A stretch of 64,000 bases of DNA from Marivirga sericea (GTDB lineage Bacteria > Bacteroidota > Bacteroidia > Cytophagales > Cyclobacteriaceae): positions 62,001 to 126,000 of the forward strand of contig NZ_FXAW01000009.1 in NCBI RefSeq assembly GCF_900177665.1. The letters are read 5' to 3'. The position numbers and the translations under genes were made by a program. Under the pieces are notes generated by a model. It was not told where the DNA came from and made no database searches. It was given only the letters and a program-made list of their open reading frames with translations. Positions 50,413 through 57,288 of the stretch are shown here, one piece after another (position 1 is the stretch's first letter; every line of letters begins with the position of its first letter).

Positions 50413-52341
50413 ATGGGAAAAATTATTGGAATTGACTTAGGTACTACCAACTCCTGTGTGGCGGTAATGGAGGGTAATGAGCCCGTTGTCATCCCCAACA
50501 GTGAGGGTAGAAGAACTACTCCTTCAATTGTAGCATTTTTGGACGAGGGGAAAGGCGAACGAAAAGTAGGTGATCCTGCAAAACGTCAAGCTATTACCAA
50601 CCCTGCCAACACAATAGCATCAGTTAAAAGATTCATGGGTAAGAAGTTTTCTGAAATTTCAGAAGAGAAAAAAATAGCTTCTTATAAAGTAGAGTCTGGA
50701 AATAACGATACAGTTAGAGTAAAAGTAGGTGATAGAAATTATACTCCTCAAGAATTATCTGCAATGATCCTTCAGAAAATGAAGTCTACTGCAGAAGATT
50801 ACTTAGGACAAGAAGTGACAGAAGCTGTGATTACAGTTCCTGCTTACTTTAATGATGCAGAGCGTCAGGCAACAAAAGAAGCCGGACAAATTGCAGGATT
50901 AGAAGTAAAAAGAATTATCAATGAGCCTACTGCAGCAGCTTTGGCTTACGGATTAGACAAAAGAGATAAAGATCAAAACATTGCCGTATACGATTTAGGT
51001 GGTGGTACATTTGATATCTCTATCTTAGAACTAGGTGATGGTGTTTTCGAAGTAAAATCTACTAATGGTGATGTGCACTTAGGTGGTGATGACTTTGACC
51101 AAGTAATCATTAACTGGTTAGCAAACGAATTCAAAGAAGAGCAAGGTATTGACTTAAAGCAAGACCCAATGGCTTTGCAGAGATTGAAAGAGGCTGCTGA
51201 GAAAGCTAAAATTGAATTATCAAGCTCTACGGAAACAGAGGTGAACTTACCTTATATCATGCCAGTAGATGGTGTGCCAAAACACTTGGTAAGAAAATTA
51301 AGCCGTTCAAAATTTGAGCAATTAGCTGACGATTTGGTAAAAAGATCAATGGCACCAGTTAAGAAAGCATTAGAAGACGCTGGTTTATCAAATTCTGAGA
51401 TTGATGAAGTAATCTTAGTGGGTGGTTCTACGCGTATGCCAAGAATTCAAGAAGAAGTAGAGAAATTCTTCGGTAAAAAACCTTCTAAAGGTGTAAACCC
51501 TGATGAGGTTGTTGCAATTGGTGCAGCCATTCAAGGTGGTGTTTTAACTGGTGAGGTTAAAGATGTATTGTTACTAGATGTAACTCCTTTATCATTAGGT
51601 ATTGAAACCATGGGTGGAGTAATGACTAAATTGATCGAATCGAACACTACGATTCCTTCTAAGAAGTCAGAAACATTTAGTACTGCTTCGGATAATCAGC
51701 CTTCAGTGGAAATCCACGTATTGCAAGGTGAGAGATCAATGGCAAAAGATAACCGTTCAATCGGTAGGTTCCACTTAGACGGAATTCCACCAGCGCCAAG
51801 AGGTGTGCCTCAGGTTGAAGTTACTTTCGACATTGATGCAAACGGTATCTTGAACGTATCTGCTAAGGACAAAGGAACAGGAAAAGAGCAGAAAATCAGA
51901 ATCGAGGCTTCTTCAGGATTGTCTGATGAGGAAATCGAGAAAATGAGAAAAGAGGCGGAAGCTAATGCTGAGTCCGACAAGCAAGAGAAAGAAAAGATTG
52001 ATAAAATCAATCAAGCTGACTCTTTGATTTTCCAAACGGAGAAGCAGATGAAAGAATTTGGCGATAAGCTATCTGAAGGCAACAAAACTGCCATCGAAGA
52101 AGCCTTAACCAAATTGAAAGAAGCACATAGCAGCCAAGATGTGGCAGCAATTGATTCTTCTATGGAAGGATTGAACAAAGCATGGGAAGCTGCTTCTCAA
52201 GAAATCTACCAAGCACAGCAAGGAGCTGAAGGTCAGCCAGGTGGAGACGCAGGGCAGCAAGCTGAAGGCGAAAGCGGTGATAGCGTAGATGACGTAGAAT
52301 ATGAAGAAGTAAATGATGAGGATAAAAAAGATTCTAAGTAA
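50413..52341 (+). CDS. dnaK: Molecular chaperone DnaK (Hsp70)
   Basis: The 642-residue Hsp70 has the ATPase start [18 protein letters not shown], the phosphate loop [33 protein letters not shown], and [14 protein letters not shown], followed by the substrate-binding domain ([20 protein letters not shown]) and a C-terminal acidic tail ([15 protein letters not shown]). No dnaJ or grpE is adjacent, so the gene stands alone, as often in Bacteroidota. It ends with a hairpin terminator. Confidence 0.98.
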
Positions 52342-52400: not shown

Positions 52401-52496
52401 TCTTTTGAAGGATTTAGGAACAGGGAAGGTCAGTCTGTAGAAAAAATATTACGGTTCATCTAAAAAAGTTCATAGTTACCATTATTACATTCATAA

Positions 52497-52514
52497 ATAT
52501 TAATTTATTAATAT
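52497..52514. repeat. AT-rich inverted repeat upstream of the 52556 gene
   Basis: ATATTAA (52497-52503) and TTAATAT (52508-52514) are a 7-bp inverted repeat with a 4-base spacer, 42 bases upstream of the start. It may be an operator, a promoter-adjacent AT block or chance in AT-rich DNA. Confidence 0.3.
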
Positions 52515-52525
52515 ATTTTTAGATA

Positions 52526-52555
52526 GATTGAAGGTTAACAAAAAACCTTTCAATC
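52526..52555 (+). promoter_or_regulatory. Leader hairpin ending at the start codon of the 52556 gene
   Basis: GATTGAAGGTT (52526-52536) and AACCTTTCAATC (52544-52555) form an 11-pair stem with one bulged base and a 7-base loop. The 3' arm ends exactly at the base before the ATG at 52556, so folding would block ribosome access. Confidence 0.6.
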
Positions 52556-54412
52556 ATGAAATTAGAAAAAGTATTAGACCAATTAAATTCTTTTGAAAAA
52601 AATTCATTCCTAAAAATCATAGATGCTATAATATCCGAAAACCCTGTCAACCGAAAAGATATTGATAAGATACTTAGTGAAAGTGATAGAGAATTAAAAA
52701 ATATTGACAACATCAATATAGCTAAGGTTTTCAAATTGATTGAAGTTGAATTTCAAAAATATGTTGAATTTGAATTCAAAGATACCACTTCCCAATTAGA
52801 TGTATTGATAGATATTATTATCCGTGACGGAAATTGCATTATGAAAAGCGATTGGTTAGCACGACTTTATGAAAACGAAATAAAATCTCTAAAATCGAAA
52901 ATTAAGAACCTAAGGAGTACAATCGACAAAGAAAATAATATTTTAGATAACTATCGAGAAAGAGATTATCACATTTATAAGGCTTGTTTAGAAACTGCCT
53001 ATAACAATGACAAAGGAAATAATCTAGATCAAAAAGTCACCCAAGACGAATTATCTATTCTACTAACTTTAGCAAGCAAATTAGAACTATCTCAAGAAGA
53101 GGTAAGGCTTATAAACTACATGGTTTTGCCGGTTGAAAAACAGAATATTGATGATATAATAAATGAACTAAAAAACATAGGGGTGATCTTCTTCTCAAAG
53201 AAAACGAACACGGTTTATGTGGCTGACGAAATAATTAGAAACTTAAGAAAAGTCCGTAAAAAGGATGTAGCTGATAAATACTTTCGCAGAGTTCTTAGAT
53301 CTTTAAAAGATCCTCAAATTAACCTCGCATGTAGAAAGCATAATATAGATTGGCAAAATGTAAGTTTTGATCAAAAGATTAAAAAGATCATAAAAGAAGG
53401 AATTCCTTTTACTGCATTATTGACAACAGATATTTACAAAAACGGCACTAAATTATCTGATAAGAAAGCATTCTTAAATGATTTGTTTGAAAATGGATTA
53501 AACACTAATAAAAGTCTCAAAGGAAGTACTATAGAAGAAAAAGTGGACAATATAATTCAATATTTTGATGAAATAGAAAGAGATGAAAGAGTTGGGATTT
53601 CACTGGAGGGTTATGATCAACTCTTAAATGACTTGAATTCTACACTTCCAAAATCCAATGACCTATTAAAAAACGAATTTGAATTGCAGGATAATAATGT
53701 TCTGAGCAGCGAATATTTGTTAGATTTTAATATCAAACCGCGCGATGTGCTGGAAGTAATTGACAGTAAGGAATTAAAAAGATTCTGCGACAAACTAGAT
53801 ATTAAGACAAGAGGGAATACCATTCTTAATATATTAGAATCATACAAAGATGCTGAAAATCTATCTTTAGAGAATTATGAGCATTTCGCTTATAGAGATG
53901 TAAATAAGATTAAAGAAAATGGTTTAAATGTTAAGGAAGCGGATTTAGGTATTCAATTTGAAGATCTAACTAAGAAGATTTTTGAGGAGCTAAAGTTCAA
54001 TGTAGATGAACAGCTCCGAAAAGATATGAATACTAATAAGGACAAGATCGATATATTATTAAACCTTGGAAATAATCAATTAATTTTGGTTGAGTGTAAA
54101 ACTTCTAAAGAAAAGGGTTTTAATAAGTTTAGCACTGTATCAAGGCAACTGAAATCATACGTAAAATTAGCAGAGAAGAATGGTTATAACATAATTAAAT
54201 CTCTTCTTATTGCTCCAGAATTTAGCGATGATTTTGTTTCTGAATGTAATCTTGAATATGAATTGAATTTGTCTCTTATTAAAGCTAGGAGTCTATATAA
54301 TATTTTGGATGCCTTTAAAGATTCTAAAAAGCACAAAGAATTTCCTCATAATCTGCTAATGAAAGATGTTGTTATTCAGGAGGATCGAATTGTAAAAGCA
54401 TTGGCAAAATGA
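52556..54412 (+). CDS. Orphan protein with SAP-like motif and C-terminal PD-(D/E)XK (Mrr-like) nuclease domain
   Basis: I do not recognise a named full-length family for this 618-residue protein. The C-terminal region (about 455-600) has the PD-(D/E)XK layout: a helix with E469 in GIQFEDLTKKIFEEL, D499 in NKDKIDILLNLG, E513-x-K515 in ILVECKTSK, and Q531 as a possible motif IV. This resembles Mrr-type restriction nucleases. Residues 406-430 read as a SAP-like DNA-binding helix-extension-helix. The N-terminal 400 residues are helical, with no recognised ATPase. It is AT- and lysine-rich, and lies alone between dnaK and a lipoprotein gene. A defence or DNA-quality-control role is inference. Confidence 0.65.
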   Translation: MKLEKVLDQLNSFEKNSFLKIIDAIISENPVNRKDIDKILSESDRELKNIDNINIAKVFKLIEVEFQKYVEFEFKDTTSQLDVLIDIIIRDGNCIMKSDWLARLYENEIKSLKSKIKNLRSTIDKENNILDNYRERDYHIYKACLETAYNNDKGNNLDQKVTQDELSILLTLASKLELSQEEVRLINYMVLPVEKQNIDDIINELKNIGVIFFSKKTNTVYVADEIIRNLRKVRKKDVADKYFRRVLRSLKDPQINLACRKHNIDWQNVSFDQKIKKIIKEGIPFTALLTTDIYKNGTKLSDKKAFLNDLFENGLNTNKSLKGSTIEEKVDNIIQYFDEIERDERVGISLEGYDQLLNDLNSTLPKSNDLLKNEFELQDNNVLSSEYLLDFNIKPRDVLEVIDSKELKRFCDKLDIKTRGNTILNILESYKDAENLSLENYEHFAYRDVNKIKENGLNVKEADLGIQFEDLTKKIFEELKFNVDEQLRKDMNTNKDKIDILLNLGNNQLILVECKTSKEKGFNKFSTVSRQLKSYVKLAEKNGYNIIKSLLIAPEFSDDFVSECNLEYELNLSLIKARSLYNILDAFKDSKKHKEFPHNLLMKDVVIQEDRIVKALAK

Positions 54413-54551
54413 TCTTAACATTCCACATTAATAAACAACTAAATCCACACAAACATTACATATGTGTTGGCAAACGCTATGTTTTAATCGATTAATGAAA
54501 TAATATTGGCAGTTTTGTGTTATGACTTTGAATCATAAAAATGATAATATT

Positions 54552-55418
54552 ATGAAGAATTTGTGGAAAATTTTTGGATTAGCAGCACTAGTACTTTTTT
54601 ATAGCTGCGATGGAATTGAAAGTGGTAACGGAAAAGCTTCCTTCTATTTAACTGATGGCCCTTTAGAAGCTGATAACGTATCAGAGGTTGTTATAAGTAT
54701 TTCAAAAGTTGAGGTATCGGGACCTGAGGGATGGAATATGGTAAAAGAATTCGAAACGCCTGAAGCTATTAATCTATTAGAACTTCAAGGTGGGGAGACT
54801 TTCTTTTTGGATGAAACAGAATTAGCTAGTGGTCAATATAACCAAGTTAGGCTTGGGCTTTCAACATCACAAGAAAGTCAAGACCCTGCTCATTACTTAA
54901 AATTCAATGACGGTTCTATAGAAGAAATTACAGTTCCTAGCGGAACTCAATCCGGTTATAAAGTAGTGGGAGGTTTCACAATTCCTGATGGTGGAGTTAC
55001 CTCTGTAATCATCGATTTTGATGTTCGAAAGTCTGTCGTGAAAGCTGGAAACTCTGGTAAATACATCCTGAAGCCTACATTAAGATTGATAGAAGATGCT
55101 GAAGTTGGTTCTGTCTCAGGTACTATAAGCGGAGGTATTGATGCTAACCTAGTGGTTTATGCTTATGAGAGCAATCAATACAATGAAAACGAAACAGAAC
55201 CAAATGAAGATGGAGTTGTCTTCGCAAATGCCGTTACTAGTGCTATTGTAGATGTTGAGGATAATTACAATTTATCATTTTTGCCATCTGGCACTTATGA
55301 TTTAGTAGTTGTGTCTTTCGATGCTGAGGGCAGTTTCGTAGAAGTAAAAACCCAAAAAAATGACGTGGAATTGGACGCTGGAGTTAAGTTAGATTTCGAT
55401 ATTGACCTTACGCTCTAA
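54552..55418 (+). CDS. DUF4382 lipoprotein
   Basis: A 288-residue surface lipoprotein: signal MKNLWKIFGLAALVLFYSC, lipobox cysteine C19. The DUF4382 domain is clear (ASFYLTDGPLEADNVSEVVISISKVEVSG...), followed by a transthyretin-like beta-sandwich C-terminal part (about 190-288). The ATG at 54552 is chosen because it gives the lipoprotein signal; a longer frame from 54522 adds an asparagine-rich stretch. No binding partner is adjacent. Confidence 0.8.
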   Translation: MKNLWKIFGLAALVLFYSCDGIESGNGKASFYLTDGPLEADNVSEVVISISKVEVSGPEGWNMVKEFETPEAINLLELQGGETFFLDETELASGQYNQVRLGLSTSQESQDPAHYLKFNDGSIEEITVPSGTQSGYKVVGGFTIPDGGVTSVIIDFDVRKSVVKAGNSGKYILKPTLRLIEDAEVGSVSGTISGGIDANLVVYAYESNQYNENETEPNEDGVVFANAVTSAIVDVEDNYNLSFLPSGTYDLVVVSFDAEGSFVEVKTQKNDVELDAGVKLDFDIDLTL

Positions 55419-56762: not shown

Positions 56763-57068
56763 TCACAGTTTTCTATCAACTGGATTTTTATAATTATTGA
56801 AGAAGGATAAAATAATTACAGATTTTTCGCCTTCATCTATCTCGTAATAAAGACTATTATATTTTAAGATAACAGCTTTGTGAATATTCTCTTTTTCAGA
56901 TTTGGGATATAATCTTGGATTTTCTTCAATGAGACTAATTGTGAAGTCAATGGCTTCTTTCAAGTTAACAGTAACTACATCAGGCCATCTATTTTTTAAA
57001 TAATTTGAAATCTCTTCTAATTCACTTAATGCTTTTTCAGTCCATAAGACCTTATAGCCATTTTCCAT
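56763..57068 (-). CDS. RelE/ParE-family toxin
   Basis: A 101-residue toxin-like protein. It begins YKVLWTEKALSELEEISNYLKNRW, the ParE start, and has HKAVILKYNSLYYEIDEGEKSVIILSFFNNYKNP, the beta-strand set of ParE/RelE ribonuclease-like proteins. ParE toxins usually inhibit gyrase. It overlaps the upstream antitoxin gene by 17 bases, typical of coupling. The critical residues for toxicity cannot be confirmed. Confidence 0.85.
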   Translation of the reverse strand: MENGYKVLWTEKALSELEEISNYLKNRWPDVVTVNLKEAIDFTISLIEENPRLYPKSEKENIHKAVILKYNSLYYEIDEGEKSVIILSFFNNYKNPVDRKL

Positions 57069-57288
57069 AGCGCCTTTTTGCTTCCGATTGAGAAATTAAG
57101 TTTCCTTTTTTAGCATCTTCTCGTCCCAACCTAATAGACTCTTTTTCGGCTTCAGATAAATCCGCCCAAAAATCCTTATCTGAGTATCTTTTTATATCCT
57201 CAATTTGACGCAATATGGCATCATTTTCTTGGGCATTAATCCAGCTTATCAGATCTCGTTTTAAATCCTCTTTTGTGGTATTCTTCAT
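57052..57288 (-). CDS. Antitoxin of the ParE-type module
   Basis: A 78-residue helical protein preceding the ParE-like toxin and overlapping it by 17 bases. The C-terminus SQSEAKRRYGKWL is the usual toxin-wrapping tail of this antitoxin group as I remember it; the N-terminus is an all-helical segment (KRDLISWINAQENDAILRQIEDI). No clear ribbon-helix-helix DNA-binding motif is visible. The pair lies between the LOG-family gene and the dihydroorotase gene. Confidence 0.8.
   Translation of the reverse strand: MKNTTKEDLKRDLISWINAQENDAILRQIEDIKRYSDKDFWADLSEAEKESIRLGREDAKKGNLISQSEAKRRYGKWL

Follow-up and report, generated by a model that had tools for sequence, protein, structure and literature searches.

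A gene of Marivirga sericea that lies between dnaK and a DUF4382 gene encodes a protein with a PD-(D/E)XK nuclease core, whose active site is invariant among its complete homologues. The gene has a patchy and mobile distribution, is carried among phage genes and decays where it is lost. From this genomic context we infer a role in defence: the gene probably encodes a self-contained, single-protein nuclease that would act against foreign DNA, of phages or plasmids, and would move between genomes as a cassette consisting of this one gene and the region upstream of it. The window analysed is a stretch of 64,000 nucleotides, and its features, in window coordinates, are as follows.

52556..54412, + strand: solitary nuclease gene, 618 aa (intact ORF, full-length homologues, PHROG 34709 match)
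52556..53035, + strand: residues 1-160, helical, with the invariant RDGN...W stretch at 90-100 (conservation in 24 homologues)
53042..53260, + strand: residues 163-235, probable winged helix (low-confidence model, sub-threshold family matches)
53288..53845, + strand: residues 245-430, possibly up to three helix-extension-helix (SAP/LEM-like) units (profile tiles, sub-threshold LEM match)
53936..54325, + strand: residues 461-590, PD-(D/E)XK nuclease domain (model, Foldseek, Mrr_cat in homologues)
53960..54148, + strand: active-site positions E469, D499, E513-x-K515 and Q531 (identical in 24/24 homologues)
52406..54450, + strand: segment missing from the matching slot of genome G822, comprising the gene with ~150 bases upstream and ~40 downstream (blastn)
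50413..52341, + strand: dnaK, upstream neighbour in the three gene-carrying members of the genus
54522..55418, + strand: DUF4382 gene, which lies downstream in those same three members

The intact open reading frame of the original prediction is real. Its coordinates were exact, with an ATG start and zero internal stops, and full-length relatives at 32-62% identity were found outside the genus. The flanking genes are as ordinary as had been claimed, dnaK upstream and the DUF4382 gene downstream, and the gene is AT-rich (29.2% GC as compared with 35.0% for the window), such that only a ParE-like ORF has a lower GC content among ORFs of at least 100 aa between 44 and 62 kb. That toxin-like ORF (PF05016, E 1e-7) and a 78-aa ORF just before it (57052-57288), which may be its antitoxin, occupy 56763-57288 on the - strand, near a dihydroorotase-like gene. 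While the protein, slightly acidic at pI 5.7, is indeed lysine-rich at 12.1% K, this is not distinctive, as nearby ORFs of 715 and 249 aa contain 11.5-11.6%.

Both the predicted fold and the invariant residues support the assignment of the C-terminal part as a PD-(D/E)XK nuclease. Residues 380-618 were modelled with a mean pLDDT of 83.7 and a pTM of 0.75, blocks within residues 461-590 reaching pLDDT 87-94, and this fold-prediction check found the nuclease core present, rather than a fold without it. The proposed arrangement of E469, D499, E513-x-K515 and Q531 was found where it had been placed, and in the alignment of 24 complete homologues all of these residues were identical in 24/24, the active site thus remaining unchanged down to 32% identity. 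Invariant positions number 62 of 618 overall, with 17/80 in residues 461-540 as against 45/538 elsewhere. When the model of residues 380-618 was compared with solved structures by Foldseek, the top six PDB matches, with a query TM of about 0.5, were all chains of the nickase Nt.BspD6I (E 9e-5 to 5.5e-4). FokI (E 3e-3) and the small BspD6I subunit came next, and EndoMS (E 0.045) ranked lower. The predicted fold carries a D...(D/E)-x-K core and matches PD-(D/E)XK enzymes, which places the domain in this superfamily. At the sequence level, neither the protein nor a 19-row profile found a usable match among solved structures, and the single match under E 0.001 in a viral structure library, an uncharacterised algal-virus protein, was uninformative.

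The more specific link to Mrr is borderline by sequence. No Mrr_cat match was obtained for the window protein at E up to 1, and its nearest solved structures are those of Nt.BspD6I and FokI; Mrr_cat differs in that these structural neighbours belong to other families. In a scan of ten homologues, one of them entered as a C-terminal piece, three reached or exceeded the Mrr_cat (PF04471) cut-off of 21, with L016 (24.4 bits) and L017 (22.3 bits) above it and L014 equal to it. At E up to 1, Mrr_cat matched 9/19 members and Card1_endonuc 3/19 (best E 2.6e-5). The latter family (PF09002) remained below its cut-off in the ten homologues (best 24.2 bits against 26.4) and did not match the window protein.

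The N-terminal two thirds were modelled less well, the whole-protein model being poor N-terminally (mean pLDDT 63.9, five sequences) and much of residues 1-160 falling under pLDDT 50. R90-D91-G92-N93 is invariant in 24/24 homologues. As a separate observation, the M-K-L start is likewise invariant in 24/24, together with the R-D-G-N...W stretch (window 52556-52855, residues 1-100), and no family match explains either. Residues 163-235 were modelled, at low confidence, as helix-helix-helix-hairpin, and in 5/10 homologues the corresponding segment gave sub-threshold matches to Tfb2, TrmB and SarA/Rot. These families contain winged helices, and residues 163-235 are probably one as well, although unrelated families match other segments just as weakly. 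A TerB-like reading of residues 150-190 was considered and rejected, TerB not being listed by segment searches.

With respect to the SAP-type motif that had been proposed at residues 406-430, its shape was recovered but its family was not. A helix at 404-414, a short link and a helix at 422-439 were predicted, at a pLDDT of only about 59-77, but SAP matched neither the window protein nor any of the ten scanned homologues, nor was it among the best 25 of 47 profile-matched families. Profile comparison of tiles placed helix-extension-helix units at about 245-282, 303-345 and 396-430. Of 2211 such comparisons, the pair at about 233-280 and 297-344 ranked first at 86% and the pair 241/385 reached 68%; because a structurally senseless control pair (about 57-88 with 474-504) scored 72%, three SAP-like repeats are only suggestive. 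The unit may be repeated up to three times in residues 245-430, and a sub-threshold LEM match was seen at 247-265 in the homologue L042.

A reading that is compatible with defence, and is a narrower version of it, would make the protein a modification-dependent (type IV-like) restriction enzyme, whose N-terminal part would read modified phage bases and whose C-terminal domain would cut nearby. The lack of a methylase partner fits it, as does the presence in three of ten homologues, at or above cut-off, of Mrr_cat, a nuclease family associated with type IV enzymes; searches of the N-terminal part, however, matched no domain that reads modified bases, and we regard this version as rather unlikely.

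Homologues are scarce and scattered. Full-length copies were found in 6/98 genomes of the family to which the window's genome belongs (an in-frame TAA interrupts one copy), in 13/395 genomes of a class sample, two of these being 41-codon fragments, and in 2/395 genomes of a phylum sample; the three samples share genomes, the window's own being part of each. A profile search found the gene in 8/146 relatives, one copy being cut by a contig end, and in 3/10 members of the genus. Further copies were found in Winogradskyella algicola (60% identity), on three Pseudoalteromonas chromids (about 37% identity), which were the only matches among plasmid records, and on viral contigs, which gave three complete homologues (57, 37 and 32% identity) and one cut by a contig end. 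These four viral loci were all recovered by each of two profiles, two of them by the L042 protein alone and none by the window protein alone. Neither of these proteins matched anything in 50,697 phage records, and nothing was found in E. coli genomes with the L041 gene as a DNA-level query. The copy with the in-frame TAA (L003) and the fragments L018, L019, L043 and L046 were excluded from both the alignments and the tree. In the former (genome G005; L003, 1501-3345) the TAA lies near residue 95 and reflects either decay or a sequencing error. Such a distribution is what one would expect of a mobile defence gene, and not of a housekeeping one.

Within the genus, the order dnaK, nuclease, DUF4382 gene was found in three genomes. 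The neighbourhood comparison that had been proposed could have revealed a conserved housekeeping gene with constant neighbours, but the gene is missing from 7/10 genus genomes. In G822 and G825, dnaK adjoins the DUF4382 gene, the gap being no more than about 200-250 bases. The G829 slot (L063) contains another ORF of 214 aa, a nuclease remnant of 23 residues (83% identity) and a repeat of the terminator-like hairpin of dnaK, and looks as if the cargo after dnaK were exchanged. In G055, G823, G824 and G827 the stretch read after dnaK contained neither the nuclease gene nor DUF4382. Remnants of a lost nuclease gene were found in G829, G124 and G450. In another genus two genomes carry the gene between conserved neighbours and two others retain the same 122-base gene end only, which suggests one shared loss. 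Intact copies, on the other hand, look constrained, since dN between the window copy and that of G826 is 0.048 with dS saturated by either method.

The tree of the family speaks for movement between hosts. The label of the window's own family changes five times along it; holding the eight rows of that family as a single clade was rejected (p 1.8e-6), as was a single clade for the two rows of a second family (p 0.0014). Among the viral-contig copies, L040 has as its sister a chromosomal copy from the window's own family (support 93/93), and L041, to which L043 is a close relative, has the chromid copy L020 (99/95). A host nuclease for DNA repair or quality control, similar to NucS/EndoMS, would recall the EndoMS entry among the weaker structural matches (E 0.045) and the only NCBIfam match of the window protein, to NucS, which lies far below its cut-off (16.6 vs 216 bits). 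Rejection of vertical descent by the tree, carriage among phage genes and the lack of the gene in most relatives nevertheless make a repair role very improbable.

The surroundings of the viral copies were as follows. The L042 copy lies by itself on the opposite strand, flanked by a head maturation protease gene and a neck-protein gene, with a minor head protein next. In L040, three + strand genes, of which the nuclease gene is the last, are set between - strand genes of phage type, with a head protease on one side. The other two + strand genes beside it (L040, 6091-7814; 230 and 341 aa) include a second that is metallo-beta-lactamase-like by eye, while the 230-aa gene had no Pfam match at E up to 1e-4. 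In L041 the nuclease gene follows a baseplate gene and a gene of unknown function, and is succeeded by an esterase-like gene and then the contig end, 1.2 kb away, so that the provirus border could be misplaced. When L041 was compared with the chromid loci L020-L022, the sole block in common began 63-64 bases ahead of the start codon and ended at the last codons; the flanks available for comparison were short, with 170 bases upstream in L020 and 1.2 kb downstream in L041. An inverted repeat ahead of the start codon of the window copy was considered as a conserved operator and rejected, since 9 to 100 of 100 shuffles were as good across 24 upstream regions. As the gene appears to travel alone between genomes, including inside dormant phages, it is a good candidate for a one-gene antiviral defence.

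Insertion sites vary between host genera and neighbours differ from locus to locus. Sites are shared by L024 and L025, from two genomes of one genus, and by the Pseudoalteromonas chromid loci L021 and L022. The latter two (L021, 8568-14429; L022, 8476-20217) have flanking genes in common and differ in the genes after the nuclease, and L020 (171-9724) has part of the same region in common; this chromid region is possibly a cargo hotspot. After the nuclease gene in L020 come SIR2 and ATP-binding genes and then, at a greater distance, a DUF3427 gene; L022 has in the vicinity a gene that matches type IV restriction enzymes. A lone nuclease gene in intergenic slots, lost repeatedly with scars and present inside phage genomes, might also be a free-standing homing or selfish endonuclease, which would cut DNA without the gene and be copied in, with no benefit to the host. 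Such a reading would call for one fixed target, but the host genera differ in insertion site; the chromid companions, moreover, are genes of defence type. Homing enzymes are also generally smaller than the 618 aa found here, two thirds of which lie outside the nuclease domain. We regard a homing endonuclease as improbable.

No recurrent methylase or ATPase partner was found beside the nuclease gene, in agreement with the original prediction. The only family to recur across host genera in several loci was a generic cluster of ABC-ATPase type, in four loci including its L027 member. A DPPY-type methylase motif was present in 3/371 neighbouring ORFs of 25 loci, none of them recurrent: the DUF4382 gene of G826, one ORF among the phage head genes of L042 and a 570-aa ORF of L035, at least two of which plainly carry it by chance. 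This screen covered the DPPY-type motif, over loci of at most about 8-10 kb on each side. These data bear on whether the protein could be an orphan type IIS restriction enzyme or nickase, its methylase lying elsewhere in the genome. In its favour, the closest solved fold, Nt.BspD6I, likewise binds DNA with its N-terminal part and cuts with its C-terminal part (PMC6261011). A methylase beside the nuclease, as in type IIS restriction-modification, was not found by the DPPY-type screen of neighbours within 8-10 kb, and the gene alone is common to the apparent prophage and the chromids, a passage that an unprotected site-specific nuclease could hardly survive. This explanation is the least credible of those considered here.

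The neighbours give a mixed picture of defence context, with phage carriage and the chromid neighbours for it and ordinary Bacteroidota neighbours against it. Nine large Bacteroidota neighbours, chosen by hand, had no PADLOC match. In a further family scan of ten proteins, nine of them Bacteroidota neighbours, eight of these nine matched families of an ordinary kind (ABC ATPase, peptidase-transporter, iron-sulfur P-loop NTPase, esterase, TonB receptor, SusD, AcrB and Pnkp-type RNA repair) and one matched nothing, as did the tenth protein, from L040. In a pooled scan of 138 neighbours, which does not tell the proteins apart, PADLOC families including SIR2, HerA, MADS parts and CARF were among the best 25 of 102.

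On the preferred reading of a single-protein defence nuclease, the N-terminal two thirds would bind DNA, or a DNA-protein intermediate, of the invader. Binding would position or release the C-terminal BspD6I/FokI-like domain, perhaps as a dimer, which would then nick or cut DNA, with a metal held by D499 and E513 and with K515 and E469 assisting. We infer both the DNA binding by the N-terminal part and the cleavage from the models. As no methylase travels with the nuclease, the host's own DNA must escape cleavage by some other means. The likeliest would be that the protein recognises a DNA state that marks infection, such as ends or branched or recombining DNA; recognition of a base modification in the invader would come second, and an activation that also destroys host DNA, i.e. 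abortive infection, third. A bolder proposal, which we put forward tentatively as falling somewhat short of an even chance, is that of an undescribed one-protein immune family, in which the winged helix and helix-extension-helix units would sense the state of invader DNA and a BspD6I/Card1-like nuclease would destroy it, the minimal unit with its promoter of ~64 bases passing between prophages, chromids and chromosomes in Bacteroidota and Pseudoalteromonas. If true, this would add a defence gene in Bacteroidota that searches for defence islands would miss, because there it stands alone among ordinary genes. It would also give a probable role to PHROG 34709, and how a lone nuclease with neither methylase nor partner separates the invader from its own DNA would become testable.

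Among known families, phrog_34709 is the same family as the window protein, matching it over residues 1-614 (E 7e-123) and scoring 1424 bits with L041 and 776 bits with L042. PHROGs annotates it as of unknown function, and no literature on it or on the nuclease family was recognised among open-licence papers, most of which were judged by title. PADLOC, Shedu models included, gave no match to the window protein at E up to 1.

The likeness to Nt.BspD6I and FokI lies in an N-terminal DNA-binding part followed by a C-terminal cutting part, which is the arrangement predicted for the window protein; in contrast, there is no sequence match by profile and no methylase neighbour in the window family. 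Alanine variants of BspD6I at E418 and D456 are reported to be catalytically deficient (PMC6261011), and the order of these two residues along the chain matches that of E469 and D499. Card1, Can2 and bAgaN are effectors of CRISPR or Argonaute systems, whereas no such partner recurs beside the window gene. bAgaN is nonetheless a precedent from the same structural group: it is described as resembling Card1, Can2 and R.BspD6I, as having a D-EVK motif and as an indiscriminate DNase used in abortive infection (PMC10620215).

Shedu (SduA) resembles the window gene as a single-gene PD-(D/E)XK nuclease, and its variable N-terminal part senses DNA ends (PMC12904381); it differs in that its structural match to the window protein is weak (8ps5, E 0.16, probability 0.20). 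Prophage-borne single-gene defences and morons (PMC9122126) are further precedents. Alongside these, the nuclease described here is probably a further case of a known kind, the single-gene defence nuclease.
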